A DNA stretch of 59,551 nucleotides from Candidatus Saccharimonadota bacterium (GTDB taxonomy: Bacteria > Patescibacteriota > Saccharimonadia > Saccharimonadales > Saccharimonadaceae), in the NCBI GenBank assembly GCA_017406565.1, contig JAFQYG010000007.1:1-59551 (forward strand), written 5' to 3'. This document shows positions 1,791-53,433 of this stretch, in pieces. A program made the position numbers and the translations under genes. Positions within the stretch are counted from its first letter, which is position 1. The number at the start of each line of letters is the position of its first letter. Under the pieces are notes generated by a model. The model searched no databases, was not told the DNA's origin, and saw only the letters and a list, made by a program, of their open reading frames with translations.

Positions 1791-4769
1791 ATGGAAGCGA
1801 TTATACATTTTATTCTTATGCCGATATTTTGGATGCCCGTAGTGGCTATTTTGGCGTTTCTCACATATCGTAATTACAAGAAATTGAATTCTCTTAAAGT
1901 GCTAAATGTAGACTCTGTGCTTTTGATGTTAGAAATCCCACGCACAAACGATAAACAAGAACTTGCGGCAGAACAGATGTTTGCTTCACTACATGGAATC
2001 TTGAGGGATAAACAAGAATTAAAAAACTCAGGTGGCGTACAGGAGCATCTATCTTTCGAGATCGTATCAACTGCTGGGCAAATCAGATTTTACGTATGGG
2101 TGCCAAAAGTTCTACAAAGCTTCGTAGAAGGGCAAATCTATTCACAATATCCGACGGTACAAATCTACAAGATGAACGAGGATTATGTAGATAATCGCGA
2201 GAAATATCCTGTGGCCTATATGACCGAGTTAGGCTTAGTTGAGGATGAAGCTCTACCGATTAAGACATTTGAGAGTTTTGAAGTAGATCCATTGGCTGGT
2301 ATTACTGGTACTTTGGCGAAACTTAGTCCTGACCGTTCGGAAGAGTTATGGATTCAAATTTTAGCCAGACCGATTCCAGATGATTGGCATAAGAATACTA
2401 CTGATCGCTGGATCAGACGCATTAAGACTGGTACCAAGTCACTCTTTTCGGGTTCGGGGATTGATTGGACTTGGATAATAGAGGCTCTAGCGGCACTCTT
2501 TAGACCACCAGCTGGTGGGACTAATTCCGAAGTAGTAGTTGAGTTATCTGAACGTGATAAGACAAGAATTGCAAAAGCTGAGGAGAAAGCGACTAAGCTT
2601 GGGTATGAAGTGAAGGTGCGTTTAGCATATCTCGGGCAAAACGACACCGATGCAAAACTCAATATGCAGGCTTTGGTTGGAACATTTAAACAGTTTAATT
2701 CTACCAATTTGAATGGTTTTAAACAGATTGGGGGGAGTTTTAATAAGGTAGATTTGGCTTCTTATAAAATGCGCCAGTTTAGTAATCGCGGTTTTATTTT
2801 GAATATTTCAGAGTTAGCATCGGTGTATCATTTACCTCATACATCGGTAGAAACGCCAAACATCGTCTGGGCTTCATCTAAAACGGCGGAACCACCTTCT
2901 ACTCTACCAGTTTTGACAGGTGAAACCGCCAACGATGAAAATATTTCAGCCTTTGGTTTGACTAATTTCCGCGGGATTAACCATCAATTTGGCTTATTGC
3001 GCCGCGATCGTTCACGTCACGTCTATATTATTGGTCAGACAGGGGCAGGGAAGAGTGGACTTTTGGAATTATTGGCTTTGTCAGACGTATTTTACAACCA
3101 AGGATATTGTATTATCGATCCACATGGGGACTTTGCAATTAATAACTTAAAATTTATCCCTGAATCGCGGATAAAAGATGTGGTTTATTTTAACCCGGCA
3201 GACACTGCGTTCCCTGTTGCGTTTAACCCACTTGAGGTGTCCGACCCAGCCAAAAAGCCTAATATTTGTTCTGAAGTGATTGGCGTATTAAAACGGATGT
3301 TTGGCGATTCGTGGGGTCCTAGGTTGGAGCATATCTTGCGTTATACCCTGCTAGCGTTATTGGATCGTCCAGAAACTACGCTACTAGATATTTCTCGTCT
3401 TTTAACTGATAAAGAATTCCGCAAAGAGACCTTGGAATATTGTAAGGATGTTACGGTTTTGCAATTCTGGAAACACGAATTTGGCCAATGGAATGATAAA
3501 CAAGTAAATGAATCAATTGCTCCGGTGCTAAATAAGGTGGGGGCATTTACAGCTAACCCGATTATCCGCAATATTATTGGCCAGCCAAAATCATCATTCG
3601 ATATTCGTAAAATTATGGATGAAGGTAAAATTCTGGTAGTTAATTTGTCTAAAGGTTTGATTGGTGAGGATAATGCTGGGATATTAGGCGCCTTCCTGGT
3701 AACTAAGGTGCAGCTTGCGGCGATGTCGCGTTCGGATATTCCTGATGTGGCGGATAGGCGTCCATTCTACTTATATGTAGACGAGTTCCAGAATTTTGCG
3801 ACCGATTCATTCGCAGTAATTCTGTCTGAGGCTCGGAAATATGGCTTGAATCTCACAGTGGCTAACCAGTATGTAGCGCAGATGACGGATACAGTGCGTG
3901 ATGCGGTATTTGGCAACGTTGGAACGACGATTTCATTTAGGGTGTCGGCCGAAGATGCGCCAGTTTTAGCTAAACAATTTGAGCCGACCTTCGATGATTC
4001 TGATATTATTCAACTTAACAACCGTCATTTTGTGATTTCGATGATTATTAATGGCGAGAAAGTCCCAGCGTTTTCAGCCACTACTCTTTCGTTACCCGAA
4101 ACGCCTAAGGATAATTTTGAAGCAATTGTGGCTCATTCTAGGGAGTATTATGCTCGTCCTAAGCTCGAAGTTGAGGCTGATATTCGTGATACTATTGAGC
4201 AATCAGAAAAATTCAAGAAGATTTTATCTGATTCAGGTCGACAGGAGCCTAAACTCGTGATTGACACTGATGATAAGCCTGTATTCAAACCCGCAGGGAA
4301 CAACAGACGTTTTATTGACACGTCAAATAAGCCCGAACAAAAACCGAACAGGAATTATTCGACACCACAAGCTGATTTGAAGCGTTCTGGATTAAGTCCA
4401 AATGCGGCTGAAGGTAAAGAACGTCTAGGTCTTAAAGATTTAGCTCGAATGGTAGCGGAAAATGGAGAGGGAAATGTTGAATTTGTTAAGCCAGAGCAAA
4501 AAGGGAAAAACAAACACAAAAAAGGGAAACATAACAAAAAATCTCATAAATCTACCCCTGTAGTTCCCTCTGTTAATAAGGATGAAAAACCTTCTGATTC
4601 TAACCAACCTATCTCCCCTGTTAAACCAGAGGTGGAATATCAGGAAAAATCATCTGTTTCGATCAAACCTTCACATGATAAATTACCCCTGTCTACCCCT
4701 GTAAATCGAGCGGATCATTACGCCGAAAAAGATAATTCGGTAGACGGATTCTTGGCTATAAAGCATTAG
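1791..4769 (+). CDS. Type IV secretion / VirD4-TraG-type ATPase with N-terminal membrane segment
   Basis: 992 residues. A hydrophobic helix lies at residues 7-25. Residues about 30-380 form a large N-terminal region typical of CPR conjugation-type ATPases. The ATPase domain follows: Walker A GQTGAGKS at 415-422, then IIDPHGDF, and Walker B YLYVDEFQNFA with D664-E665. This resembles the HerA/VirD4/TraG family of DNA-pumping ATPases. The last about 200 residues are low-complexity and Lys-rich, including KGKNKHKKGKHNKKSHK, probably disordered and nucleic-acid binding. Likely a membrane-anchored hexameric ATPase that moves DNA or protein. No other secretion genes adjoin it, so the substrate is unknown. 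Reads as leaderless from a -10 box six bases upstream. Confidence 0.75.
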   Translation: MEAIIHFILMPIFWMPVVAILAFLTYRNYKKLNSLKVLNVDSVLLMLEIPRTNDKQELAAEQMFASLHGILRDKQELKNSGGVQEHLSFEIVSTAGQIRFYVWVPKVLQSFVEGQIYSQYPTVQIYKMNEDYVDNREKYPVAYMTELGLVEDEALPIKTFESFEVDPLAGITGTLAKLSPDRSEELWIQILARPIPDDWHKNTTDRWIRRIKTGTKSLFSGSGIDWTWIIEALAALFRPPAGGTNSEVVVELSERDKTRIAKAEEKATKLGYEVKVRLAYLGQNDTDAKLNMQALVGTFKQFNSTNLNGFKQIGGSFNKVDLASYKMRQFSNRGFILNISELASVYHLPHTSVETPNIVWASSKTAEPPSTLPVLTGETANDENISAFGLTNFRGINHQFGLLRRDRSRHVYIIGQTGAGKSGLLELLALSDVFYNQGYCIIDPHGDFAINNLKFIPESRIKDVVYFNPADTAFPVAFNPLEVSDPAKKPNICSEVIGVLKRMFGDSWGPRLEHILRYTLLALLDRPETTLLDISRLLTDKEFRKETLEYCKDVTVLQFWKHEFGQWNDKQVNESIAPVLNKVGAFTANPIIRNIIGQPKSSFDIRKIMDEGKILVVNLSKGLIGEDNAGILGAFLVTKVQLAAMSRSDIPDVADRRPFYLYVDEFQNFATDSFAVILSEARKYGLNLTVANQYVAQMTDTVRDAVFGNVGTTISFRVSAEDAPVLAKQFEPTFDDSDIIQLNNRHFVISMIINGEKVPAFSATTLSLPETPKDNFEAIVAHSREYYARPKLEVEADIRDTIEQSEKFKKILSDSGRQEPKLVIDTDDKPVFKPAGNNRRFIDTSNKPEQKPNRNYSTPQADLKRSGLSPNAAEGKERLGLKDLARMVAENGEGNVEFVKPEQKGKNKHKKGKHNKKSHKSTPVVPSVNKDEKPSDSNQPISPVKPEVEYQEKSSVSIKPSHDKLPLSTPVNRADHYAEKDNSVDGFLAIKH

Positions 4770-22113: not shown

Positions 22114-23142
22114 TTACAGACTTGTTTTCTTGAGGCGGATAACCATGTCGACTTTGCGATTGGCGTAATACGAATATTCTTTTTTGTATTTGCCACCTTG
22201 AGAACCCCAAGAGTTAAAAATTGGGTTACCTTTTTTATTAAAGCCCATAAATACCATAATATGATTGCCATTATTGGGGTTCCAGCCCACGATATCACCG
22301 ACTTTTAGTGTATTCTTGAGTTGTTTAACTGATTTGTGAGGGTAAAAAACATCGAAAGTATTTTTATGCTTTTTGATGTGATCTTTAGCGGTTCCAGTAA
22401 GTTTGCCACTTTGACCAACCCAAACATATGTGTTTTTAGGAATAACACCAAGACGTTGCAACGAGGTTGACACATAAGTGATGCAGGTACCGGCGGTTTT
22501 AGACCTGCTAAAATCTGATTTATAATTAGCTCCGTATTTGGCATTTTTCATATAATCAAGTTGTTTTTTCATTGCATCGAACCACTTGCTAAGGTCTGTT
22601 TCTTTTGTTTTTTCAGTTTTCTTAGTTTTACTTGAAGACGAGGTGGAAGATTTTGTTTCTGTTTTTTTAGCCTCTTCATCAGCCTTGATTTGAGCTAATT
22701 CTTCATCAGAGATTGTACTGCAACTAGTATTATTCAAAAGACCACCTGGAAGTAAGAATTGAACTCCTGCGTAAAGTACCGCATATGCAATTAGACCAAT
22801 GACAATTTCAAGCATTCTGTTTTTAGCTTTCTTTGTTTGTTCTGTACTGTCTTTTGCAGTAAGATATTGAATACCCACAATAGTAACGCCGATAATAGCG
22901 AGAAGCCCTATACCAATAGAGAGAATATCAATGACGAGATTCAGAATAGTGTAAACTCCACATCCATTGTCGTCATCTTTGATATTACCAAAAAAATTCG
23001 TCTCTACTATATTTGAAGAGTCAGCAAAAACGTTTTGTTGGAATAATAATGGCAAGATTATTGCAAATGCAAAAACTATGATTGCAAAAACCTTAATGAT
23101 TTTACACTGACAGGATGCTTGGAGCTTAGTATTGTTGTGCAT
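22114..23142 (-). CDS. Secreted two-helix (VirB2-like) protein fused to a cysteine amidase-like domain
   Basis: 342 residues. Signal peptide at about 14-41 (VFAIIVFAFAIILPLL ... VFADSS). Two membrane helices (about 65-90 and 108-130) with a charged turn TAKDSTEQTKKAKNRM match the TrbC/VirB2 pilin-like layout seen in Saccharibacteria. After a Thr/Ser/Lys linker, residues about 190-340 form an NlpC/P60- or CHAP-like fold, with Cys in AGTCITYVSTSLQ and His in NGNHIMVFMG as the likely catalytic pair. A membrane-tethered wall peptidase is inferred. Last gene of a minus-strand group with a small membrane protein and DUF5663; convergent with fmt. Confidence 0.65.
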   Translation of the reverse strand: MHNNTKLQASCQCKIIKVFAIIVFAFAIILPLLFQQNVFADSSNIVETNFFGNIKDDDNGCGVYTILNLVIDILSIGIGLLAIIGVTIVGIQYLTAKDSTEQTKKAKNRMLEIVIGLIAYAVLYAGVQFLLPGGLLNNTSCSTISDEELAQIKADEEAKKTETKSSTSSSSKTKKTEKTKETDLSKWFDAMKKQLDYMKNAKYGANYKSDFSRSKTAGTCITYVSTSLQRLGVIPKNTYVWVGQSGKLTGTAKDHIKKHKNTFDVFYPHKSVKQLKNTLKVGDIVGWNPNNGNHIMVFMGFNKKGNPIFNSWGSQGGKYKKEYSYYANRKVDMVIRLKKTSL

Positions 23143-38875: not shown

Positions 38876-41800
38876 CTAGCGTTGTTCAGGGGCAACGTTT
38901 TCACGGAGCCATACTCTGAGAGCTTGGCCGACGGTTGAATTACCCAGGCTAAGTTCGTATTGGAGAACATCGCGTTTGGTGTCTTCATCTAGAGAGTCCC
39001 ACCAATCGTTAATACGTAAATCATTTTCTTCATTTATGCCGGTTTCGTCTGTCATGATCCGAACTCCTTCTTCGCCTACCCTATCGCCAAATTCTTCGGC
39101 GATAAAGCCAGCTAGAGTGTTGGTTTCGGGAGTTGCATTATTTCCTTCGGCTTCTTCTGGGTTGATTCCACGTTCTTCAGCGATTCGCTTTGCAGCTTCT
39201 AATTGATCATTGATTGCTCCACCAGAAATTTCGGTAGATGTAGGTTCAACTGATTCGGGCGTATCAGATGGGTTGTTGATGCCCCTCTCTTCAGCGATTC
39301 GCTTTGCAGCTTCTAATTGATCATTGATTGCCCCACCAGAAATTTCGGTAGATGTAGGTTCAACTGATTCGGGCGTATCAGATGGGTTGTTGATACCCCT
39401 CTCTTCAGCGATTCGCTTTGCAGCTTCTAATTGATCATTGATTGCCCCACCAGAAATTTCGGTAGATGTAGGTTCAACTGATTCGGGCGGTGTTACTGGT
39501 TCCGCATTTTGAGGTGGTGTTTCAGGGGATGGAGTGGTTGGCTCTGTCTCTTGAGTAGGAGAATCTACCTCTATACGAGAACGCTCTGCACCGACTCCAC
39601 CAATTACTCCGCCAATAGCACCAGCACCAGCCGTTGCAGTAGCACGTGCGATAAAATTCATAAAGGCATTCGGTACGTAGTCGGTTACTGTTCTAGTGAT
39701 GGTATCGTAAATTGGTCCACCAGGTGTAATATGTGATGGGATGAGTCCTTGCCTGGCCCACTCTTCGGCAACTTCCCTCATATAGCTTTGTGCCACATCT
39801 GGCCATTCACTAATTGGCCCTGGATAGGTATGAGCAAAATCACCAACTTGGCCATTATAGCCCGCTGTTATACTATTGCTTCCTGGTACCATACTATATT
39901 TTGCGTCGATGTTATGCGCAATGTCGAGAGCCTGTTGTAAGTCATCTGGGTTACCGCCCATTTGAGTGAAACTGTCATACATGCCGCCGCCCCTTGCGAC
40001 ATCGACGTTATCGTAAAGATCTATCTCGACTTTATCTGGTTCGGTACCAACGCGTACTTTATCAGTAACTTCATGAGTATCGACGTTGTTAATTTGGACT
40101 CCGCTCATGAGACCACCAAGAGCAGCACCAATACCGGCTGATAAGGCTGTACGCTTACGATTACTGCTTAAATCTTGATCTTTGGCATCAGAATATTGCT
40201 CAAGTAGCCAATTAGCGACATTAGATGTATCAGCGTCTTGACTATCTATGCTTTCTAACTGAGCCTTAATTTCTTCTTCACTAACAAACCCGCGTACAGC
40301 GCTATTTTTGGAGTTTTGACGTGACATTAAGCCACCCATTAGAGCGCCTTTACCAGCACCTAATGCCACACCGCCAGCAGTATAACTGAGACCGACAGAC
40401 ATGGTGCCGGCAGCAATACCTGTAGCAAGACCAACGCCTGTAAATGCAAGACCAGCAGCTGCAGCTGCAATTAGAGCACCTTTAAGAACTTTATTATTAA
40501 TAACTTTGTTTACGAATTTACGACAAATAGTACCATTATCCAAAGCATCAATAGTAGCATCTTCTAGTTTTGCTGCTTCTTCAAGATAGTTGTTTAAGAA
40601 TTCTGCGTTGACATTGGCTTCTAATTCTTTAATCATATCGCCATATTCAGCGCGAAGTGTCTTTTCAGCTTCTTCGTTAAGACGAGCTTTTTCGGCATCG
40701 ACTTCTTCTTGAGTTTTAGTCGTATTATTTGGATCTCCACCGACAAATTCAAGAAGTTGAGTCTGAATTTGTTGATTCAACTCATCGACTCTTTCTTGGA
40801 GTTTTCCAGATAATTCGCTTTTGCCAGCGTTAAATGTAGCTTCGGATTTTAACTTCAAAGATTCATCTAACAGCTTAGCATATTCGTCTCTAACTCTGAT
40901 GAAATCAGCACGATTTTTAGCTCCAACGATAATTCGGCGATTCTTAGCATATAGTTCAGCTAATTCTGGTAACATTTTATCTATTTTATCTTCAACTTCT
41001 TTGAGACGCTCGGCTTTATCTTCATCGATGGTGTCTTCGATATTCTTAAGTGTGCCTTCGCCGAGATCAACTTTGTTACCGTTTTCTTCTGTTTCTTCAG
41101 AATCTGTAGCTTCCTTGTCACCATCATCTGAGGCTTCGGCAACTTCCGCATCTGTATCTTTAACTAGAGCTTCAGCAGCTTCTGAAATATCGCCTTCATC
41201 TGGTTCTACGATATATTCTATATCAATTCCGTCTGATTCCTCGTTGTTTTCTGCAGTATTGCCATCTTCTGGCGTTTCGTCGTCTTTTGAGGGATCAACT
41301 GCTTCTGAAGCTTCTGATTTGCTATTTTGCCCACTGGCGTTGCGCTTGTAAATAGTCCAGTTTTCAATGGGTTCGTCATAGCCTTCATCAACACCATATG
41401 TTTCAGCATAATAATTCTCACCGGGCCAATCTTCGCCAGTGAGGCGCTTAAATTCGGCTTCTTTCGAAGCGCCCGAGGCAATTTGAAATCTGGCGAATAC
41501 TTCGCCTTTATCAATGGTTTCTGGTCGGGTTTCCAACGAAGAATTTGAAGTCGGAGTTTCGGTAGGATAAGCCCTTTCGCGTACTTCTTTGCGGTATTGT
41601 TCGGCTTTTTCTTCTGTAATGCGGCCACTTCTTAACATGTCATCAATATTGAGGAGATCGTTTTCGAGTTGTCGTTGAGCGGGATCGTCAATTTTTTCTT
41701 TATCTCCAATTGGTGAGTCTCCGTTCATCGCTATCTCTACAGCAGTACGAAGTTTGGCCATTTTTTCTTCTTCACCAGAAGAAGCGTCGGCTGCTTCAGT

Positions 41801-42013
41801 ATTTTTGGCGTTTTCATAAGCTTCTTCTGCTTTTCTGCGGTATTCTAAGGCTTTTTCTGGAGAAATAGTGCCAAATCTTGCCGCATTATCGATTTCAAGA
41901 AGTTTATCATCAAGTGAATCTTTGGAAGCATCATATCCAGAAAGGATATCCCATTTATTAGGGTCGTGACTATTTTGTTCGTTTGAGTTTGATATTTTTT
42001 CGCTTGGATTCAT
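38876..42013 (-). CDS. 1045-residue acidic membrane protein with three identical 38-residue repeats
   Basis: Two degenerate N-terminal repeats (residues about 35-70 and 110-150, pattern D.LL.ID...R.G.I...KA..YR.....AY) are followed by a long acidic stretch (200-330) and coiled coil (330-490). A Gly/Ala-rich hydrophobic region (about 510-570) may be two or more membrane segments; another such region is at 770-800. Residues about 850-955 hold three copies of PESVEPTSTEISGGAINDQL plus 18 more residues. The C-terminus is again acidic. Not recognised. It directly follows the DUF5663 gene at 42016, and its size and composition suggest a surface or envelope scaffold. Confidence 0.6.
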   Translation of the reverse strand: MNPSEKISNSNEQNSHDPNKWDILSGYDASKDSLDDKLLEIDNAARFGTISPEKALEYRRKAEEAYENAKNTEAADASSGEEEKMAKLRTAVEIAMNGDSPIGDKEKIDDPAQRQLENDLLNIDDMLRSGRITEEKAEQYRKEVRERAYPTETPTSNSSLETRPETIDKGEVFARFQIASGASKEAEFKRLTGEDWPGENYYAETYGVDEGYDEPIENWTIYKRNASGQNSKSEASEAVDPSKDDETPEDGNTAENNEESDGIDIEYIVEPDEGDISEAAEALVKDTDAEVAEASDDGDKEATDSEETEENGNKVDLGEGTLKNIEDTIDEDKAERLKEVEDKIDKMLPELAELYAKNRRIIVGAKNRADFIRVRDEYAKLLDESLKLKSEATFNAGKSELSGKLQERVDELNQQIQTQLLEFVGGDPNNTTKTQEEVDAEKARLNEEAEKTLRAEYGDMIKELEANVNAEFLNNYLEEAAKLEDATIDALDNGTICRKFVNKVINNKVLKGALIAAAAAGLAFTGVGLATGIAAGTMSVGLSYTAGGVALGAGKGALMGGLMSRQNSKNSAVRGFVSEEEIKAQLESIDSQDADTSNVANWLLEQYSDAKDQDLSSNRKRTALSAGIGAALGGLMSGVQINNVDTHEVTDKVRVGTEPDKVEIDLYDNVDVARGGGMYDSFTQMGGNPDDLQQALDIAHNIDAKYSMVPGSNSITAGYNGQVGDFAHTYPGPISEWPDVAQSYMREVAEEWARQGLIPSHITPGGPIYDTITRTVTDYVPNAFMNFIARATATAGAGAIGGVIGGVGAERSRIEVDSPTQETEPTTPSPETPPQNAEPVTPPESVEPTSTEISGGAINDQLEAAKRIAEERGINNPSDTPESVEPTSTEISGGAINDQLEAAKRIAEERGINNPSDTPESVEPTSTEISGGAINDQLEAAKRIAEERGINPEEAEGNNATPETNTLAGFIAEEFGDRVGEEGVRIMTDETGINEENDLRINDWWDSLDEDTKRDVLQYELSLGNSTVGQALRVWLRENVAPEQR
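39161..39487 (-). repeat. Three tandem 114-bp coding repeats
   Basis: Units at 39487-39374, 39373-39260 and 39259-39161 (the last slightly shortened). They are nearly identical at the DNA level, with only a few third-position changes, so the expansion is recent. Each encodes 38 residues, PESVEPTSTEISGGAINDQL, then EAAKRIAEERGINNPSDT. Copy number probably varies between strains. Confidence 0.9.
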
Positions 42014-45317: not shown

Positions 45318-45400
45318 AGTTTTAAGTAGATTAAACTGCGAGGCTACTTAAAATCACATGTATGACCTGGGAAAAGCGCCTCAAATGGGGCGTTTTTCCT
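45318..45400 (+). ncRNA. Candidate about 80-nt small RNA or attenuator before the GH30 gene
   Basis: After the promoter at 45283, a 10-bp hairpin TTTTAAGTAG/CTACTTAAAA (45320-45353) is followed by an intrinsic terminator: GGGAAAAGCGCC (45369-45380) with GGGCGTTTTTCC (45388-45399). Transcription would end about 20 bases before the GH30 coding sequence, which has its own TATAAT at 45405-45410. This is either a free-standing small RNA or an attenuator or riboswitch-type leader of the glycosidase gene. The ligand, if any, is unknown. Confidence 0.55.
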
Positions 45401-45420
45401 ATGTTATAATTATGACTATT

Positions 45421-46656
45421 ATGACTACCGAAATATTGATTAAAAATGATGTCGAACTGGGTGTTTGGCAAGGGATCGGTGGTGCTATTACTGAAGCGAC
45501 TGCATATAATTACTCAAAATTGAAACCTAAGAAGAGACAGAAGTTCTTAAATGCTTATTATGGTAAAAATGGCTTAGATTATCGTTGGGGTAGAATTAGT
45601 ATTGGCAGTAATGATTTTTGTCTTGAACCCTATGAATATACTAAGAAAGCAGATTTCAGTGATTTTTCTATCAAACATGACAAAAAATGGCTTTTACCGA
45701 TGCTGAAAGACGTTTTAAAGCAAAAAGAGTTATGCTTAGTCGCATCACCGTGGTCACCGCCAAAATGTTTGAAAATATCGCTTGGAGAGCATTTTTACAG
45801 TACTCTCAAGCCGTGGCATTATGATAATTATGCAAAATATATCCGTAAATGGTTAGAGGCTTATGAAAATGAAGGGATAAAAATTAGTTTTGTTACGCCA
45901 CAAAATGAACCAAAGGCGATTCAAATTTGGGAGTCTTGCAAATATTCGTATCGGGCGCAGAAAAAACTCGCTTATAAGTACTTAGTAAAGGAATTAGCGG
46001 GTTGTAATACAAAAATTTTACTCTGGGATCATAATAAAGAAATGTTAGAAAAAGTAGCCGATAAGCTATTTAATGGTAAATATGCTACGGAATATGGCTA
46101 CAAAGAAAAAATTGCCGGACTATGCTATCACTGGTATGATGGAACTTTTCCGGAGCAAATGTGGCGAGTGCGCCAAAAATATCCAGATATTATGATGCTA
46201 AGTTCGGAGATGTGTTGTGGCTTTTCATCCTATAATGAGCAAGAGTGGCAAAACGACGCAAAGATGTACCTAAGAGAATTATTCGCCGATATTAATACTG
46301 GAGCAAGTGCTTGGATAGACTGGAATATGCTTTTATCATGGCAAGGTGGCCCAAGCTATTGTAAAAACTACGTAAAAAGTCCTGTTATTTTAAACGAAAC
46401 AGAGGATGATTTTATCTTAACACCAATTTATTACGCCCTAAAAAAAGTGGCTGAATTATTCCCTGCTGATAGTAAGGTAGTACGATGTGAATATAAGTCG
46501 GATGATGTCGTAGCGATAGCCAGAAAAACAAAATCCGGTTGCAAGGTGGTTGTAGCGAATATATCTAATCAAGAACAAAAAGTTAGAATAAAACTTGGAA
46601 AAAGGAGCGAGGAAGTTGTTTTAAAAGAGTCTGATATTTTTAGTGTTCATATCTGA
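45421..46656 (+). CDS. Family GH30-like glycosidase
   Basis: 411 residues. N-terminal GVWQGIGGAITEATAYNY is the GH30 start. Acid/base E163 in VTPQNEPKAIQ and nucleophile E263 in MMLSSEMCCGF lie at the ends of barrel strands 4 and 7. The C-terminal part (VVRCEYKSDDVVAIA to the end) is the side beta-structure. No signal peptide, so it acts inside the cell or is exported by another route. GH30 includes beta-glucosidase and glucosylceramidase activities; specificity is not readable. ATG at 45421 is favoured; another ATG lies at 45412, one base after TATAAT. Confidence 0.82.
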   Translation: MTTEILIKNDVELGVWQGIGGAITEATAYNYSKLKPKKRQKFLNAYYGKNGLDYRWGRISIGSNDFCLEPYEYTKKADFSDFSIKHDKKWLLPMLKDVLKQKELCLVASPWSPPKCLKISLGEHFYSTLKPWHYDNYAKYIRKWLEAYENEGIKISFVTPQNEPKAIQIWESCKYSYRAQKKLAYKYLVKELAGCNTKILLWDHNKEMLEKVADKLFNGKYATEYGYKEKIAGLCYHWYDGTFPEQMWRVRQKYPDIMMLSSEMCCGFSSYNEQEWQNDAKMYLRELFADINTGASAWIDWNMLLSWQGGPSYCKNYVKSPVILNETEDDFILTPIYYALKKVAELFPADSKVVRCEYKSDDVVAIARKTKSGCKVVVANISNQEQKVRIKLGKRSEEVVLKESDIFSVHI

Positions 46657-47043: not shown

Positions 47044-47532
47044 TCATCGTCGTTGATTACACGGAACATCAATAGTATTAGTCCGGTAAACTATGTCGTA
47101 ACTTGATAAATCCATAGGTATCGAATCAAGGTACTGCTTTGCTGCGGCAGTGTTTTTTTCCGATTCACAACTATCTACAGAAACTACTATTCCCTTTTCT
47201 GCAGCGGTATTTTCTTCAACTGCCCAATACTCTACTACAAAATAGTCTCCATCAATATTTCTTTTATAATCGTATTCTGAGTAGGGCAAATAATCGGAAA
47301 GGGTATATTCATGCTCTTCGTTATATTCTGTGCTTACTGACAAATTTTGACCATCTGTAGTGGAAGTAGAGTCAGAGCTGTCGGAATTATCTCTGGGTTG
47401 ACTACCTGATAACCATAAAACTACGCATACTAAAAAACCAATAATAATTACTAGGCCAAGTCCTAAAGCTATCTTTTCTTTGGAAGATAGATTGTTCATT
47501 AGATTGCGCAATGGGTTAGGGTTACGTTCCAT
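47044..47532 (-). CDS. Small bitopic membrane protein, paralogue of the next gene upstream
   Basis: 162 residues. One membrane helix (about 21-43, ALGLGLVIIIGFLVCVVLWL), a Ser/Asp/Thr linker, then an extracellular domain: YTLSDYLPYSEYDY, a conserved Cys in VSVDSCESEKNTAAAKQYLDSIPMD, and SYDIVYRTNTIDVPC. The same layout recurs in the C-terminal part of the 263-residue protein and in the PEGA protein at 51490. Its ATG follows the upstream stop directly, with GGAGG in the end of that gene. Function unknown, envelope-located. Confidence 0.65.
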   Translation of the reverse strand: MERNPNPLRNLMNNLSSKEKIALGLGLVIIIGFLVCVVLWLSGSQPRDNSDSSDSTSTTDGQNLSVSTEYNEEHEYTLSDYLPYSEYDYKRNIDGDYFVVEYWAVEENTAAEKGIVVSVDSCESEKNTAAAKQYLDSIPMDLSSYDIVYRTNTIDVPCNQRR

Positions 47533-48324
47533 TTATTGATCCTCCGCACATATTACATCTATACCATCTTTTATTACGTAGTTTATTTGGTATTTCTCAA
47601 TTTTTGGAATGGTCTGGAGATAAGTATTGGCTTTTTTCTTGTTTTCTTCAACATTACATGGGCTAAGCGAAACCGTAATAGTATGAGTGTATTCATCGCC
47701 ATCAATATAAACATCTGAGCCTATATCATCATAATCAGCATTATTGATTGAATCAATTTGATATGGCAAGTATAGAGATAAGTCATAGGAATTGCGGTAC
47801 GTTCCTTGACAAAATGAGTTTGGATATTTTGCTTCTGAAACTGGTAAACAATCTACAATAGGCGTATTGTAAAAGTTTTTTTCCCAACTAAGAATAATTT
47901 TATATGACTGTTTAATAGAATCAATATCAATAATGAAGCTTACCTGATGAGATGTGTTGCCGGTGTCTTCGATCACACGACTGTCTTCTGTGTATGATTC
48001 TTCTCGAACTACTGCATCGTTGATTATACTTCTATCTAAATTTTCGTCTGTAGCAGAAACTACTTTCCAAAGCTCTTGTTCATATAGTTCTATTTCGGCT
48101 TGAGGAATATCTTTTAGAATACCTCTGTCGTCTAATGTACCGACGTGATCTTTCGGTTTAGATAGAATGCTATTTGCTACAGATATTATTATAATGATCA
48201 GTAACACTTGCAGGATGATTATTATTGTTATTTTTTGTTTACGAGATAGATTTTGTACCAAGGCTTTTAAACCTGATGAAGCTCTACTATGATTATAATT
48301 ATCCGTAGAATAGTCTTGATACAT
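47533..48324 (-). CDS. Bitopic membrane protein, paralogous family
   Basis: 263 residues. One helix (about 32-53, ITIIIILQVLLIIIIISVAN) and an extracellular part. The C-terminal segment (SLYLPYQID, VSLSPCNVEENKKKANTYLQTIPKIEKYQINYVIKDGIDVIC) repeats the pattern of the 162-residue neighbour, including two Cys that may form a disulfide. Starts three bases after the wall hydrolase stop. It probably works in the same surface complex as the hydrolase. Confidence 0.65.
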   Translation of the reverse strand: MYQDYSTDNYNHSRASSGLKALVQNLSRKQKITIIIILQVLLIIIIISVANSILSKPKDHVGTLDDRGILKDIPQAEIELYEQELWKVVSATDENLDRSIINDAVVREESYTEDSRVIEDTGNTSHQVSFIIDIDSIKQSYKIILSWEKNFYNTPIVDCLPVSEAKYPNSFCQGTYRNSYDLSLYLPYQIDSINNADYDDIGSDVYIDGDEYTHTITVSLSPCNVEENKKKANTYLQTIPKIEKYQINYVIKDGIDVICAEDQ

Positions 48325-48326
48325 TT

Positions 48327-51300
48327 TTAAATCCCTCCGTTTATATAAGCGTTTACGTCGATGAATTTATGATACTGGCCAGAAGTAAAGTTACTAATTG
48401 GTAGTGTTCTGATTTGGCCAGAAGTGCCACACCATGCGGCCTCACCAAATATAACCTGATTACCATTGATGCCGAGTATTACTCCTGTATGGCCTTCGGA
48501 ACTACTGCTTAGTCCTTCCGCATGCCTGACGCTAAAGATTGAATAAGCAACCGGCACATTACTTTCTTTCAAATTTGGAAATTTACCTTTATTTGCATTA
48601 TAGAAATTATCTGCAATATCTCCACCGTTGCCTAAGAAGTTAATACTCATACCTTTAAGATACTTGTGAATAAACCATTTGGAAAAATTAACACAGTTCC
48701 TATGGAGGTCACCGTTACAAGCATAACCCATTCCTGATATTTTAGCTAAATCAGCATCGAGATAAGCATCTACTACTTTCTGTGCTTCTTCTTTGGTTTT
48801 AAAACCACCTTCTACAATCGTACCGTCGCCACCATTGCTACCATTGTTATCTTCTTCAGGGCAAAGGTTGCATTCATTCCCGTTACTAGTAACGTTGCCA
48901 GTTTTGTTGTTTTTGTTTCTGTAAACTACTTCTTGGCCGTAAGGGTGATATTTGCTAATTCTACCATACCAGTCACCATGTGAAGCTTGTGCGGTTAGAG
49001 CTTCACCTTTTTCGCCTCTGAGGAAAATTGAAAAGTGTGATAGTTTCCCTCCTTTGTAATGGAAGATTACATCACCATCTTGAAGTTCGGATTCTTTAGT
49101 GCCATCAGTGTCTACTCTGTACCAACCATTTTCTCCCTCGTCTACCTCGGAAGGCACTATAGGAACTTTTCCTTGTCCGTTTTTGTGTTTTATGCGAGTA
49201 ACTAAACCTGAATATCTAAGCACGCCACCCACAAACACCCCACAGTCTTTGCCCATAGCTGTTTCACTAAAATTCGAGAATCCGTTGTCTTTTAATAACG
49301 TTTTCCAAACTTCCGGTTCTTTGGGGCCCCTAATCGTGGTTGTTGGATCTGTGCCTTCTGGCCAAGCAAAAAATCGTGCTACTGCTCCAATATTTTGGCT
49401 GTTCTGGACTGAAGAAGTTATAGTGCCAGTCGTTGAAGAAGTTTTAACCCCATCGGTAACCGATACACCGGCATTAGAGTTATTGGCATGCTTTGCACGA
49501 ATACGATATGTTTTACTGTTATAGCTTTTATGGTATTTAACAATGTGGCCAAAGGCAAAACTATGAAGCGAACCCTCAGCAACGTATAATTCACCAGTTG
49601 AATCCTCGACTACCATCCATGAGTGTTCTGCGCTAAGTAAAATATCACCCCCTTGCAATGATGACTTTTCGCCGTCCCATACAGTAACATCCCAGAGGTC
49701 ACTATGTTCCATAGCATGCTTCGCTTGCTCGTAGCCACCTACAGATGCAGTGGAAGTAAAACTTTTATCATAACCTGAATACCTTACTACCGTGGCAGTA
49801 AAACCACTACAGTATGCACCATATCTCCAGCTATATCTTCCATCCTGTGTGCCGTCAAAAAGACTAGTTTGTTTCCATAGATTTGCTTTTACCCAAGCTT
49901 TTTGAAATTCGAGGTTACCAGAGCCGGTACCGGGAAATTCAGTAGTTTGCCCAGGAGAAGTTAAGACAGACTCTAGTACTTTTCCTCTTGCTAATGTATA
50001 TTTTTCCTTGTCTGTCCCAAGTGGCCAAGCAAGAGCGGCACCTGTAGCATTAATATTCTTGCTCCCTTCAAAATTTGCGTCGCAAGAAGGTTTGCTACTG
50101 CCACCGCCTTTGGCACGATAAATCCACTGGTGATCATATTTTTTCCATTTGCCGCTAACAGCTTTAGTTATACGGCCCCAATTATCATTAGTATAACTAG
50201 CTTCTGCACGATAGAGCTTGCCATCTATTTCCGTAACTATCCACCAATGCTGACCAGTGCCGCTGCTTCTTCCTTTACCATAAACAATATCACCCGCTCT
50301 GAGTTTTGAAGTATCACCATCGTCCCATTCTATAAATTCCCATAGTTCAGGGTGTTTTTGAATATATGAATTAGTTTTGCCATAGTTTTTATCATAACCA
50401 GAGTATTTGACTACTGTTTCAACGAAATCTCCACAATCTGGCTGGTAAGTGTGGCCATGCCCCGATAATCCTAATTCTTCAACCGCATTAGCATATGCCG
50501 GAAAACGTCCTGAACCTTCCTTGGTGTGGTACTTTGACGAATCTGTGCCTTTTGGCCAGGCTAATTGCGCAGCAGTGTCGCTGATCGCTTTAGCGCCTCC
50601 TGTAATATCGGAATCATTGGAAACGTTTCCATCGCTGGTATCTGGTGTGTCGAGATCGTCTGAGCCGCTATCATTAGCTGCGCCAACTCCATCACAAGTT
50701 AAAGCTTTGTATGCAGTAAAAGCGCCCCACTGCTGGTCTTTAGCGCCCGCATCATAACTGCCATCTCCAGTATATTTTCCTACCCAATTACTATCTACTT
50801 GCGAGCTATTCGGATCACGTCTAGCATCATATCTATTCATAACATAAGGAGAACCTTCACCCCTATTAGCTTCCTCATCGCTGAATCCCATTTTTTTGGC
50901 TCTTTCAATATACACGGGCGCCGTACCGTTGTATCTGAAGAACATTTTTTTGACTCCATCGTCAGAATTTAAATCTAAACCGGAGCCATAACTATCATGC
51001 ACTAATTTAGCAGCAATGTTGGTCTGACGCTGAAATTCTTCATTAGAGATTTTCCCAGCTGGGTAAAAGGAATTACCATTTTTACCACCATCAGTATAAG
51101 AATATAGTTGATATGCACCCTGGCCATTGCTAGGATTATCTTGAGCTAAACCATGCTCTCTAAGGTGCAGTACTGCTAAAATTTCCCAAGGAAAACCATA
51201 CTCTTTAGCGGCTTTTTCGTAAAATGGTTGGTGATGCCTTACGGCTTCCATTTGTGCGTCTGTAAACACTTGAGTTCCTGCGTAGTTTTTATTACTACCA

Positions 51301-51497
51301 CAGATTTCACTGCTAGACCCCCCTCCGCTTTCTGTACTACAAGGTTCATAAAATAGAATATTATTTTGTGAAAACAAAGCTTCATCCTCTTCAGTTAGTG
51401 AAGATTTGGCAAATGTAGTTTGAGATATCATGGCGCTCAAAGAAAAGACTACGGTGACCAAAAGCATTATTCTTGTTTTGCTTATTATATTACTCAT
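48327..51497 (-). CDS. Giant secreted multidomain peptidoglycan hydrolase
   Basis: 1056 residues. Signal peptide (1-31, MLLVTVVFSLSAMIS then TFA). Residues about 75-190 resemble a lysozyme/transglycosylase-type domain (FYEKAAKEYGFPWEILAVLHLREHG, GQGAYQLYSY). Three tandem NlpC/P60-like domains begin LAWPKGTD, LAWPLGTD and FAWPEGTD, with Cys near 355 (PDCGDF), 563 (YCSGF) and 752 (DCGVF) and later His in QHWWIV, EHSWMV and SHFSIF. A CHAP-type domain ends the protein (Cys near 932 in RNCVNFSKW, His in GHTGVILG). It could cut glycan and stem peptides, plausibly of the actinobacterial host. Overlaps the PEGA-domain gene by eight bases. Confidence 0.82.
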   Translation of the reverse strand: MSNIISKTRIMLLVTVVFSLSAMISQTTFAKSSLTEEDEALFSQNNILFYEPCSTESGGGSSSEICGSNKNYAGTQVFTDAQMEAVRHHQPFYEKAAKEYGFPWEILAVLHLREHGLAQDNPSNGQGAYQLYSYTDGGKNGNSFYPAGKISNEEFQRQTNIAAKLVHDSYGSGLDLNSDDGVKKMFFRYNGTAPVYIERAKKMGFSDEEANRGEGSPYVMNRYDARRDPNSSQVDSNWVGKYTGDGSYDAGAKDQQWGAFTAYKALTCDGVGAANDSGSDDLDTPDTSDGNVSNDSDITGGAKAISDTAAQLAWPKGTDSSKYHTKEGSGRFPAYANAVEELGLSGHGHTYQPDCGDFVETVVKYSGYDKNYGKTNSYIQKHPELWEFIEWDDGDTSKLRAGDIVYGKGRSSGTGQHWWIVTEIDGKLYRAEASYTNDNWGRITKAVSGKWKKYDHQWIYRAKGGGSSKPSCDANFEGSKNINATGAALAWPLGTDKEKYTLARGKVLESVLTSPGQTTEFPGTGSGNLEFQKAWVKANLWKQTSLFDGTQDGRYSWRYGAYCSGFTATVVRYSGYDKSFTSTASVGGYEQAKHAMEHSDLWDVTVWDGEKSSLQGGDILLSAEHSWMVVEDSTGELYVAEGSLHSFAFGHIVKYHKSYNSKTYRIRAKHANNSNAGVSVTDGVKTSSTTGTITSSVQNSQNIGAVARFFAWPEGTDPTTTIRGPKEPEVWKTLLKDNGFSNFSETAMGKDCGVFVGGVLRYSGLVTRIKHKNGQGKVPIVPSEVDEGENGWYRVDTDGTKESELQDGDVIFHYKGGKLSHFSIFLRGEKGEALTAQASHGDWYGRISKYHPYGQEVVYRNKNNKTGNVTSNGNECNLCPEEDNNGSNGGDGTIVEGGFKTKEEAQKVVDAYLDADLAKISGMGYACNGDLHRNCVNFSKWFIHKYLKGMSINFLGNGGDIADNFYNANKGKFPNLKESNVPVAYSIFSVRHAEGLSSSSEGHTGVILGINGNQVIFGEAAWCGTSGQIRTLPISNFTSGQYHKFIDVNAYINGGI

Positions 51498-52167
51498 GGT
51501 TGTCTAATCCCGATGTGTATAATGGTTCACATTTATATGTAATGTCATAGTCATCTAAGTTGTAGCCAAGTTCTTTTAGCTTGTCTTTAGCGGTTTGTTC
51601 ATTGCCTCCAGTGTTGTCCTCTATTATAAGGCAAACTGCTTTGTTACAATCATCACGAAGATCTTGTTGAATATTATACTGAACATATTCGCTAAAACCA
51701 TCAGTGTATGCGTCATAATCGAATGGAAGAATATCTATAATACTGATAGCTTTTTCATACTTAGCAATAAATGCCTTAGCAGCTTCGTCATCATCCAAAG
51801 CGACTTTGGTTAAAATATTGGCATCTTCTGGATGAGAATAGTAGTATTCATAACTACCATTTACGTCTAAAAGATAGCCCCATATTTTTGCAAATCCATC
51901 CTTTTCTAGAGTAATGTCATATTCTTTAGTTTGCATATTATCCATTGCAATCTTAACGTGATAATTGCCCGGTAATACATCGTGTTGTTTTTGATTATCA
52001 TACCGTCTTCCGTTTAGAGTGACTATAGCATCCTTTGGTGCTACAAGAATGTCTATTACTGCGGTCTTGGCGAAATGGATGATAATTGCAATCACAACAA
52101 TAGCCACAACTACTAAATTGAGAGTAATTATAGTAGCTATTTTGTGTCGTTTAATAAAATTAAGCAT
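51490..52167 (-). CDS. PEGA-like membrane protein of the hydrolase operon
   Basis: 225 residues. Membrane helix (about 11-33). A PEGA-type beta-domain (VDILVAPKDAIVTLNGRR ... LPGNYHVKIAMDN) follows, then a C-terminal segment (IDILPFDYDAY, CNKAVCLIIED, LKELGYNLDDYDITYKC) that matches the Cys-containing domain of the two small proteins at the far end of the operon. First gene of the unit. TACAAT lies seven bases before the ATG, so the operon mRNA may be leaderless. Probably a surface anchor or partner for the hydrolase. Confidence 0.65.
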   Translation of the reverse strand: MLNFIKRHKIATIITLNLVVVAIVVIAIIIHFAKTAVIDILVAPKDAIVTLNGRRYDNQKQHDVLPGNYHVKIAMDNMQTKEYDITLEKDGFAKIWGYLLDVNGSYEYYYSHPEDANILTKVALDDDEAAKAFIAKYEKAISIIDILPFDYDAYTDGFSEYVQYNIQQDLRDDCNKAVCLIIEDNTGGNEQTAKDKLKELGYNLDDYDITYKCEPLYTSGLDNHE

Positions 52168-52455: not shown

Positions 52456-53433
52456 TTAAGGGCGGAAATTATAGTATATTGTACCTGGTGTGAGGTTAGA
52501 GCCTCGTATGTTAGCCAGTTCGGGAATAGTAACAAATTCATAACCGTCTTGACGTAATGTATCAATGAGAGCAGGTACGGCATCTACTGTAGTTGGATAA
52601 ATATCGTGCATTAATATAACTGCCCCATCATGTATTTGATTTTTGGTAGTTGCGATAATAGAGTCGACGTTTTGGCTCTTCCAATCGAGTGTATCTACCG
52701 ACCATAGGATTATCGGCAAGTTAATTGCACTTCTTACGGCATCATTATAATTCCCATAGGGCGGACGTACTAACGTAAGGTCGTGGCCTAATATATTAGA
52801 GTAAACAGATTTTGCTTCATTAATATCGTCTTGCATGGCAGCGGCGGAGATACGAATTAAATTTTGATGGTACATTGTGTGACTAGCGGCAATGTGGCCT
52901 TCTTTTTCGATGCGTTTGGCGAGGTCAGGGTAAGTTCTCATCATACTTCCTAGCATAAAGAAAGTAGCAGGAACGTCTTTAGATTTTAGAATGTCTAGTA
53001 ATCTTGGCGTGGTTAACTCAGATGGACCATCATCGAAGGTGAGAGCAACTAATTTTTTGCCATTTAAGACTCTTTCGGTAACACGAACGTGTTTTGCCAT
53101 AGGAGCAATTTTAATTCTATTAGATTCATCGCTAGTGTGAGAGATAGTCAAATCACATAGATCAAGAACGACGATTATGCCAAATATTAATACTGCAAAA
53201 AGTTTTAACCAAGGAAAACGCGTGTCGAGGCGACGTAAAAACGAACCTTGTAGTTTTTTGGTTGTTACGATAGTAGTAGTTTTTTTGGTTGATGCAGAAG
53301 CGGATGTGAGGGCTTTTTTGCCTCTAGAACGAGAGCGTTTTCTGGCGTTTTCATTTTCAATATAAATAGTGATGGCATGAGCACCGGTACGTCGTTGGAT
53401 TTCTTTAGAGAATAACCTGTCGAGCAAATTCAT
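52456..53433 (-). CDS. Membrane-anchored polysaccharide deacetylase (NodB family)
   Basis: 325 residues. Basic N-terminus, one membrane helix (about 76-95), then the catalytic domain: VALTFDDGPSELTTPRLLD with the Asp-Asp pair, the metal-binding HxxxH as ASHTMYHQNL, PPYGNYN, and VILMHDIYPTT. It removes acetyl groups from surface glycans such as peptidoglycan GlcNAc, which would protect the wall from lysozyme and possibly from the hydrolase encoded nearby. It overlaps the SpoU gene by 29 bases, with AGGAA ten bases before the ATG. Confidence 0.88.
   Translation of the reverse strand: MNLLDRLFSKEIQRRTGAHAITIYIENENARKRSRSRGKKALTSASASTKKTTTIVTTKKLQGSFLRRLDTRFPWLKLFAVLIFGIIVVLDLCDLTISHTSDESNRIKIAPMAKHVRVTERVLNGKKLVALTFDDGPSELTTPRLLDILKSKDVPATFFMLGSMMRTYPDLAKRIEKEGHIAASHTMYHQNLIRISAAAMQDDINEAKSVYSNILGHDLTLVRPPYGNYNDAVRSAINLPIILWSVDTLDWKSQNVDSIIATTKNQIHDGAVILMHDIYPTTVDAVPALIDTLRQDGYEFVTIPELANIRGSNLTPGTIYYNFRP

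Follow-up and report, generated by a model that had tools for sequence, protein, structure and literature searches.

Gene organization of the locus

The stretch of DNA analysed here (the window, 59,551 nucleotides) belongs to a saccharibacterial genome of 815 kb in 7 contigs, 97% complete, whose relatives are named Candidatus Saccharibacteria and are mostly MAGs from rumen and gut. On its minus strand, at 48327..51497 (ATG at 51497, stop ending at 48327), lies the gene of a giant wall hydrolase of 1056 aa, for which the open reading frame, the catalytic residues and the structural model give the order lysozyme, three NlpC/P60 domains and CHAP. A signal peptide is predicted at residues 1 to about 30 (51408..51497, minus strand), with a putative cleavage site between TFA and K; it is seen in the sequence and as a helix at residues 7–24 of the model. 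The A-x-A type site is kept across the giant orthologues, so that export, a property of VirB1-like hydrolases, is predicted here too. Apart from the signal peptide no transmembrane helix was found, either in the sequence or in the AlphaFold model. The motif FSQNNILFYEP follows (residues 42–52, 51342..51374, minus strand), and the corresponding pattern F-x-Q-N-N-I-x-F-Y-x-P stands directly after the signal peptide in many related hydrolases, irrespective of the catalytic modules behind it. Its strict form is present in 58 of 108 family hydrolases and a looser version in many more; our guess is that it acts as a sorting or docking signal.

The giant is flanked by three single-TM proteins, also on the minus strand: m3 upstream (51490..52167), with a weak PEGA-like middle region, and m2 (47533..48324) and m1 (47044..47532) downstream. 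The gene of m3 overlaps that of the giant by 8 bp and the gaps on the other side are 2 and 0 bp, a geometry which makes m3–giant–m2–m1 an operon. The three proteins end in a common domain of ca. 85 aa, a single profile matching residues 67–156 of m1, 171–256 of m2 and 132–219 of m3. The earlier note had grouped the giant with related membrane proteins in one operon, which the tight spacing and the common C-terminal domain bear out; it had also described their shared extracellular domain as Cys-bearing, and here the domain stands while the cysteine is not conserved in the family. Over the loci examined this domain was found in 88 stretches, and the extracellular X domain that m2 carries in addition has 31 matches by profile. 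A promoter and terminator scan gave a signal no different from the shuffled expectation and was uninformative.

VirB8 proteins are binding partners of VirB1 proteins in Gram-positive T4SS (PMC12857230), and for this reason m2 was examined as a possible VirB8, which would have an NTF2-like extracellular fold. Its model (pLDDT 77) gave no significant Foldseek match, and TraM (4ec6) appeared only at Z 4.0 and rmsd 5.6 Å, amid unrelated folds. We therefore do not claim m2 as the missing VirB8.

A polysaccharide deacetylase gene (52456–53433) adjoins the operon in the giant clade. Self-protection against the lysozyme was considered as its role and rejected, since the same gene stands without the operon in three relatives (G001, G009 and G017); the deacetylase looks rather like an insertion site than a functional partner. 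Beside the operon there is also a GH30-type glycosidase gene (45358–46656, plus strand) without an obvious signal peptide; a gene sharing its N-terminus occupies the same place in a relative's locus (L061, 9909–11132). Elsewhere in the window, at 38876–42013 (minus strand), a 1045-aa protein carries, towards its C-terminus, a tandem repeat in three nearly identical copies (ESVEPTSTEISGGAINDQLEAAKRIAEERGIN...), and the segment 25739–31822 resembles an integrated element bearing a restriction-modification pair: a serine recombinase gene overlaps tRNA-Asn, and further on there are a DNA cytosine methyltransferase and a possible restriction partner gene.

Domain folds and catalytic residues

Pfam recognised very little in the giant, its sole match being NLPC_P60 at residues 749–837 with E 4.8e-4 and 20.5 bits, below the cut-off of 23, and NCBIfam left it unmatched. 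As the PF00877 gathering score was missed, we call its domains NlpC/P60-like by fold and residues only. In the giant's orthologues and paralogue the best E-values were 4.6e-9 for CHAP and 2.3e-6 for NLPC_P60, with CHAP scored in two of five relatives. A profile of the NlpC repeat matches each giant orthologue three times, which follows from its construction since it was seeded with these rows; more than 40 other hydrolases have a single match to it, mostly with E 1e-9 to 1e-25. For the lysozyme-like domain nothing credible was returned by Pfam (11 homologues) or by a PDB sequence search, and comparison of folds was therefore needed.

An AlphaFold model built from a 32-row alignment (mean pLDDT 76.8, ca. 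95 across most of the lysozyme domain and ca. 92 across CHAP) was compared with known structures by Foldseek and VIA-align. The lysozyme or lytic-transglycosylase-like domain (residues 61–285, 50643..51317, minus strand) aligns over residues 70–271 with MltF, MltE, MltC and goose-type lysozymes at Z 8.4–9.4; a Z of about 9 is middling for a helical domain, and the rows listed for this segment are only glycan-cutting enzymes of the lysozyme superfamily, one chitinase among them. NlpC/P60 domain B (residues 482–667, 49497..50054, minus strand) has a papain-like fold, residues 477–670 aligning with the NlpC/P60 structures 3h41 and 6b8c at Z 8.4–8.5 and rmsd 2.6 Å. Domains A (residues 302–466, 50100..50594, minus strand) and C (residues 700–864, 48906..49400, minus strand) are homologous to B by profile, and the Pfam match backs C. 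The CHAP domain (residues 897–1056, 48330..48809, minus strand) aligns over residues 905–1052 with 8ej5 (Z 11.8) and 5t1q (Z 11.4). Structure prediction of each domain, which the earlier note had proposed as a check, thus returned the expected folds for the lysozyme, NlpC/P60 B and CHAP domains.

The catalytic residues are well kept. In the lysozyme domain Glu114, Trp104 and Asn190 are each present in all of the 81 distinct homologues compared. For the peptidases the candidate residues are Cys355, His417 and Glu432 in A, Cys563, His625 and Glu641 in B, Cys752, His821 and Gln837 in C, and Cys935, His1003 and Glu1019 in CHAP. Over the family the NlpC cysteine is kept in 80 of 80 and the histidine in 75 of 80 (four gaps, one Tyr), Cys935 and His1003 of CHAP are both present in 28 of 28, and the third position varies among E, Q, S, H and D. 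Orthologues of 46–66% identity retain the Cys/His pair in each of the four peptidase domains. Missing catalytic residues had been named beforehand as an outcome that would count against the claim of one exported protein with five putative wall-cutting domains; none is missing, and that claim is confirmed by the reading frame, the signal peptide, the folds and the residues. From sequence and model we infer that the giant is a catalytically competent peptidoglycan hydrolase. A different use of the same domains, in which some of them bind the wall and do not cut it, has been proposed for inactive VirB1 homologues of Gram-positive conjugation systems (PMC12857230). Three NlpC copies would provide multivalency for such an adhesin and the variable third catalytic position would fit it, yet the preservation of Cys and His in four peptidase domains, together with Glu in the lysozyme domain, makes this explanation very improbable.

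A hydrolase family linked to virB4

The lysozyme domain was found at 80 loci in a scan of the genome collection, nearly all of them in Saccharibacteria. An intact ORF is present at 78 of them, and at 34 of these a co-directional virB4 lies upstream within four genes, a placement whose chance we estimate at <1% from about 850 genes per genome; it is missing from the other 44, some of them cut by contig ends. At 46 of the 78, a neighbouring gene encodes the C-terminal domain common to m1–m3. In the genus the genes usually run VirB6, PrgI, TraE, VirB4, hydrolase, membrane protein and DnaJ. The virB4-linked hydrolases are often two-domain proteins, and by our own profiles the architectures are lysozyme–NlpC (43), lysozyme with another or no recognised partner (23) and lysozyme–CHAP (9). 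The five-domain form was found only in the window and three further genomes (loci L061, L062 and L064), and some relatives, e.g., G004, are missing the lysozyme domain. The earlier note had suggested a machine for host-wall invasion or feeding; the common position of the family at the virB4 locus points to a more specific mechanism.

This distribution also bears on whether the giant might be simply an autolysin of its own wall, working in division, daughter-cell separation or growth, with no role in a type IV secretion system (T4SS) or towards a host. Genes of the same window read as mraY, murG, ftsW and a PBP, indicating that the organism makes its own peptidoglycan, and work of the giant on its own wall is therefore conceivable. 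Enzymes of the NlpC/P60 and CHAP types can serve the own wall, and PcsB and SagA are among the fold matches. However, 34 of 78 loci place the family after virB4, the domain content is patchy and changes fast within one genus, unlike that of conserved division autolysins, and the lysozyme domain can be missing altogether. We regard a purely autolytic role as unlikely, although work on the own wall is the chief competitor of the reading favoured below.

Probable relocation and growth of the giant gene

In the window's genome virB4 is on contig C5 and the giant operon on contig C7, with no T4SS gene adjoining the operon, so that the link of the giant to the T4SS is drawn from its relatives. By profile searches, on which all genome-wide counts given here rest, the giant carries the sole lysozyme domain of its genome in the window's organism (G000) and in G060, G061 and G062. 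In the giant-bearing genomes virB4 is directly followed by dnaJ, except for the window's genome, where an unrelated surface-type protein of 663 aa, encoded on the opposite strand (L060, 10832–12823, minus), stands between the two genes, at the position of the relatives' hydrolase. The deacetylase locus is seen without the giant operon in the three relatives already mentioned. In a tree of the domain the four giants fall within a supported clade of 42 rows (99/95) with 22 virB4-linked members, and virB4-linked rows branch deeper as well.

Being the sole copy in genomes whose virB4 locus has no hydrolase, the giant most probably represents a relocated and domain-enriched VirB1-like hydrolase that would open the wall for the T4SS, a reading to which we assign a probability of about 0.6. 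Most simply, a virB4-linked hydrolase would have been transferred together with a membrane partner and enlarged, in the direction that the sequences suggest; duplication followed by loss, in place of relocation, is equally possible. The ancestor would have been a lysozyme–NlpC (or lysozyme–CHAP) protein encoded directly downstream of virB4, as in many Saccharibacteria. In the lineage of the window, the gene and its membrane-protein partners would have moved beside the polysaccharide deacetylase gene, and further NlpC/P60 and CHAP domains would have been gained. The protein would cross the membrane by Sec and may be held near the cell surface by m1–m3, to which it presumably binds. There the lysozyme domain would cut glycan strands, while the three NlpC/P60 domains and CHAP would cut peptide bonds, and the wall would be opened where the T4SS passes, the cell's own first and the neighbour's perhaps at the contact site. 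We infer from gene position and sequence both the functional coupling to the T4SS and the wall that would be cut.

Exchangeable cutters and pilin fusions

A second, syntenic operon is present in the same genome on contig C2 (L005, 9489–13783), with an m3-like gene, a hydrolase of 828 aa, and m2-like and m1-like genes. In this hydrolase an N-terminal phage-tail lysozyme (PF18013) replaces the SLT-like domain and there are two NlpC domains versus three in the giant. The exchange of cutting modules is wider than these two paralogues: over 57 related hydrolases Pfam recognised CHAP in 14, phage-tail lysozyme in 13, glucosaminidase in 8, a GDSL-type hydrolase in up to 5, amidase_2 in 2, VanY in 2 and a C39-like peptidase in 1.

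T4SS_pilin has 12 matches in the window's genome, several in long proteins. Two of these pilins (L005, 17086–18189, and L006, 8314–9459) carry the NlpC/P60 family of the giant (profile E 1.4e-24 and 1.3e-12), independent evidence that this family works together with T4SS pilins. A literature search returned no paper coupling a pilin with a peptidoglycan hydrolase domain, and such pilins, carrying their own wall cutters, could be a separate find. Within the window and outside the operon, another T4SS pilin (22114..23142, minus strand), related to these two, has a C-terminal Cys/His domain which the giant's NlpC profile does not match. A T4SS_pilin domain is also fused to a C-terminal Cys/His domain at L171 (4077–5897), and pilin domains fused to long extracellular regions were seen on C2 (L170) and C6 (L171).

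The swapping of glycan cutters between paralogues is what would be expected with varying targets, and it is one argument for the reading of the earlier note, a T4SS-independent enzyme secreted onto the host wall for entry or nutrients. Five cutters within one exported protein, the gene's place outside the virB4 locus and the epibiotic life of cultivated Saccharibacteria (PMC10633639) fit this as well. Nevertheless, nothing in the sequence points to a host, actinobacterial or other, or to a target, no host-adhesion domain was recognised in the giant, and the context of the family is a secretion machine; such an enzyme independent of the T4SS appears improbable to us. Host-wall attack by the giant as such is plausible, and its appeal comes from the cultivated Saccharibacteria, which live as epibionts and need their T4SS (PMC10633639).

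Comparison with known systems

Gram-positive VirB1 proteins combine several domains, TraG being SLT plus CHAP and PrgK LytM plus muramidase plus CHAP (PMC12857230). Like TraG (pIP501), PrgK (pCF10) and Orf14 (Tn916), the giant is an exported multi-domain protein with a glycan cutter and a CHAP-type peptidase, and genes of its family sit with virB4, prgI and virB6. It differs from them in having five domains versus two or three, three of them NlpC/P60, a lysozyme domain that Pfam does not recognise and a gene outside the T4SS locus. Moreover, the known Gram-positive VirB1 proteins are membrane-anchored (PMC12857230), whereas the giant appears soluble and may be held by m1–m3. Among single-domain comparisons, domain B shares the fold and the Cys/His pair with the NlpC/P60 endopeptidases SagA and BCE_2878, although the giant stays below the Pfam gathering score and its third residue is Glu or Gln. 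Residues 905–1052, with Cys935 and His1003, have the fold of the CHAP domains of the endolysin LysK and the Andhra tail tip; unlike these, the CHAP of the giant is not phage-encoded and is part of a chromosomal five-domain protein.

A saccharibacterial parallel is Southlabia epibionticum ML1, in which, according to PMC12102498 citing PMC10633639, homologues of a peptidase and a lysozyme directly after virB4 are reported as essential for epibiotic growth. The likeness, drawn from that description, lies in a T4SS-associated lysozyme or peptidase; there the genes belong to the T4SS locus, while in the window the cutters lie away from it, joined in a single five-domain protein. The T4SS of S. epibionticum has no recognised coupling protein (PMC10633639). 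The window contains at 1791–4769 (plus strand) a VirD4/TraD-like ATPase (TrwB_AAD_bind, E 1.9e-8), a possible coupling protein.

Lysozyme and peptidase genes after virB4 in one cultivated species and multi-domain VirB1 proteins were thus already known (PMC12102498, PMC10633639, PMC12857230). Against the literature searched, and as far as it shows, what is new is the combination of five domains, the place of its gene away from the T4SS locus, the pilin–NlpC fusions, the exchangeable cutters with shared membrane partners and the Pfam-invisible lysozyme family tied to virB4. One could go further and picture the T4SS as a host-aimed wall drill, in which exchangeable multi-blade hydrolases, the giant and its phage-lysozyme paralogue among them, a tethering family of membrane proteins and NlpC/P60 pilins would pierce the wall of the partner where the cells touch, with blades tuned to host wall chemistry, a speculative picture that we consider rather doubtful.

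The role of the saccharibacterial T4SS has been described as completely unknown (PMC11665869), and in a recent survey most classes of Patescibacteria showed little association between VirB1 homologues and virB4, with other glycosidases suggested as possible substitutes (PMC12102498). The Pfam-invisible lysozyme domain that follows virB4 in many Saccharibacteria could be the missing enzyme of the VirB1 role, and the rapid shuffling of its companion domains would offer a sequence-based handle on whether this T4SS acts on the host wall.
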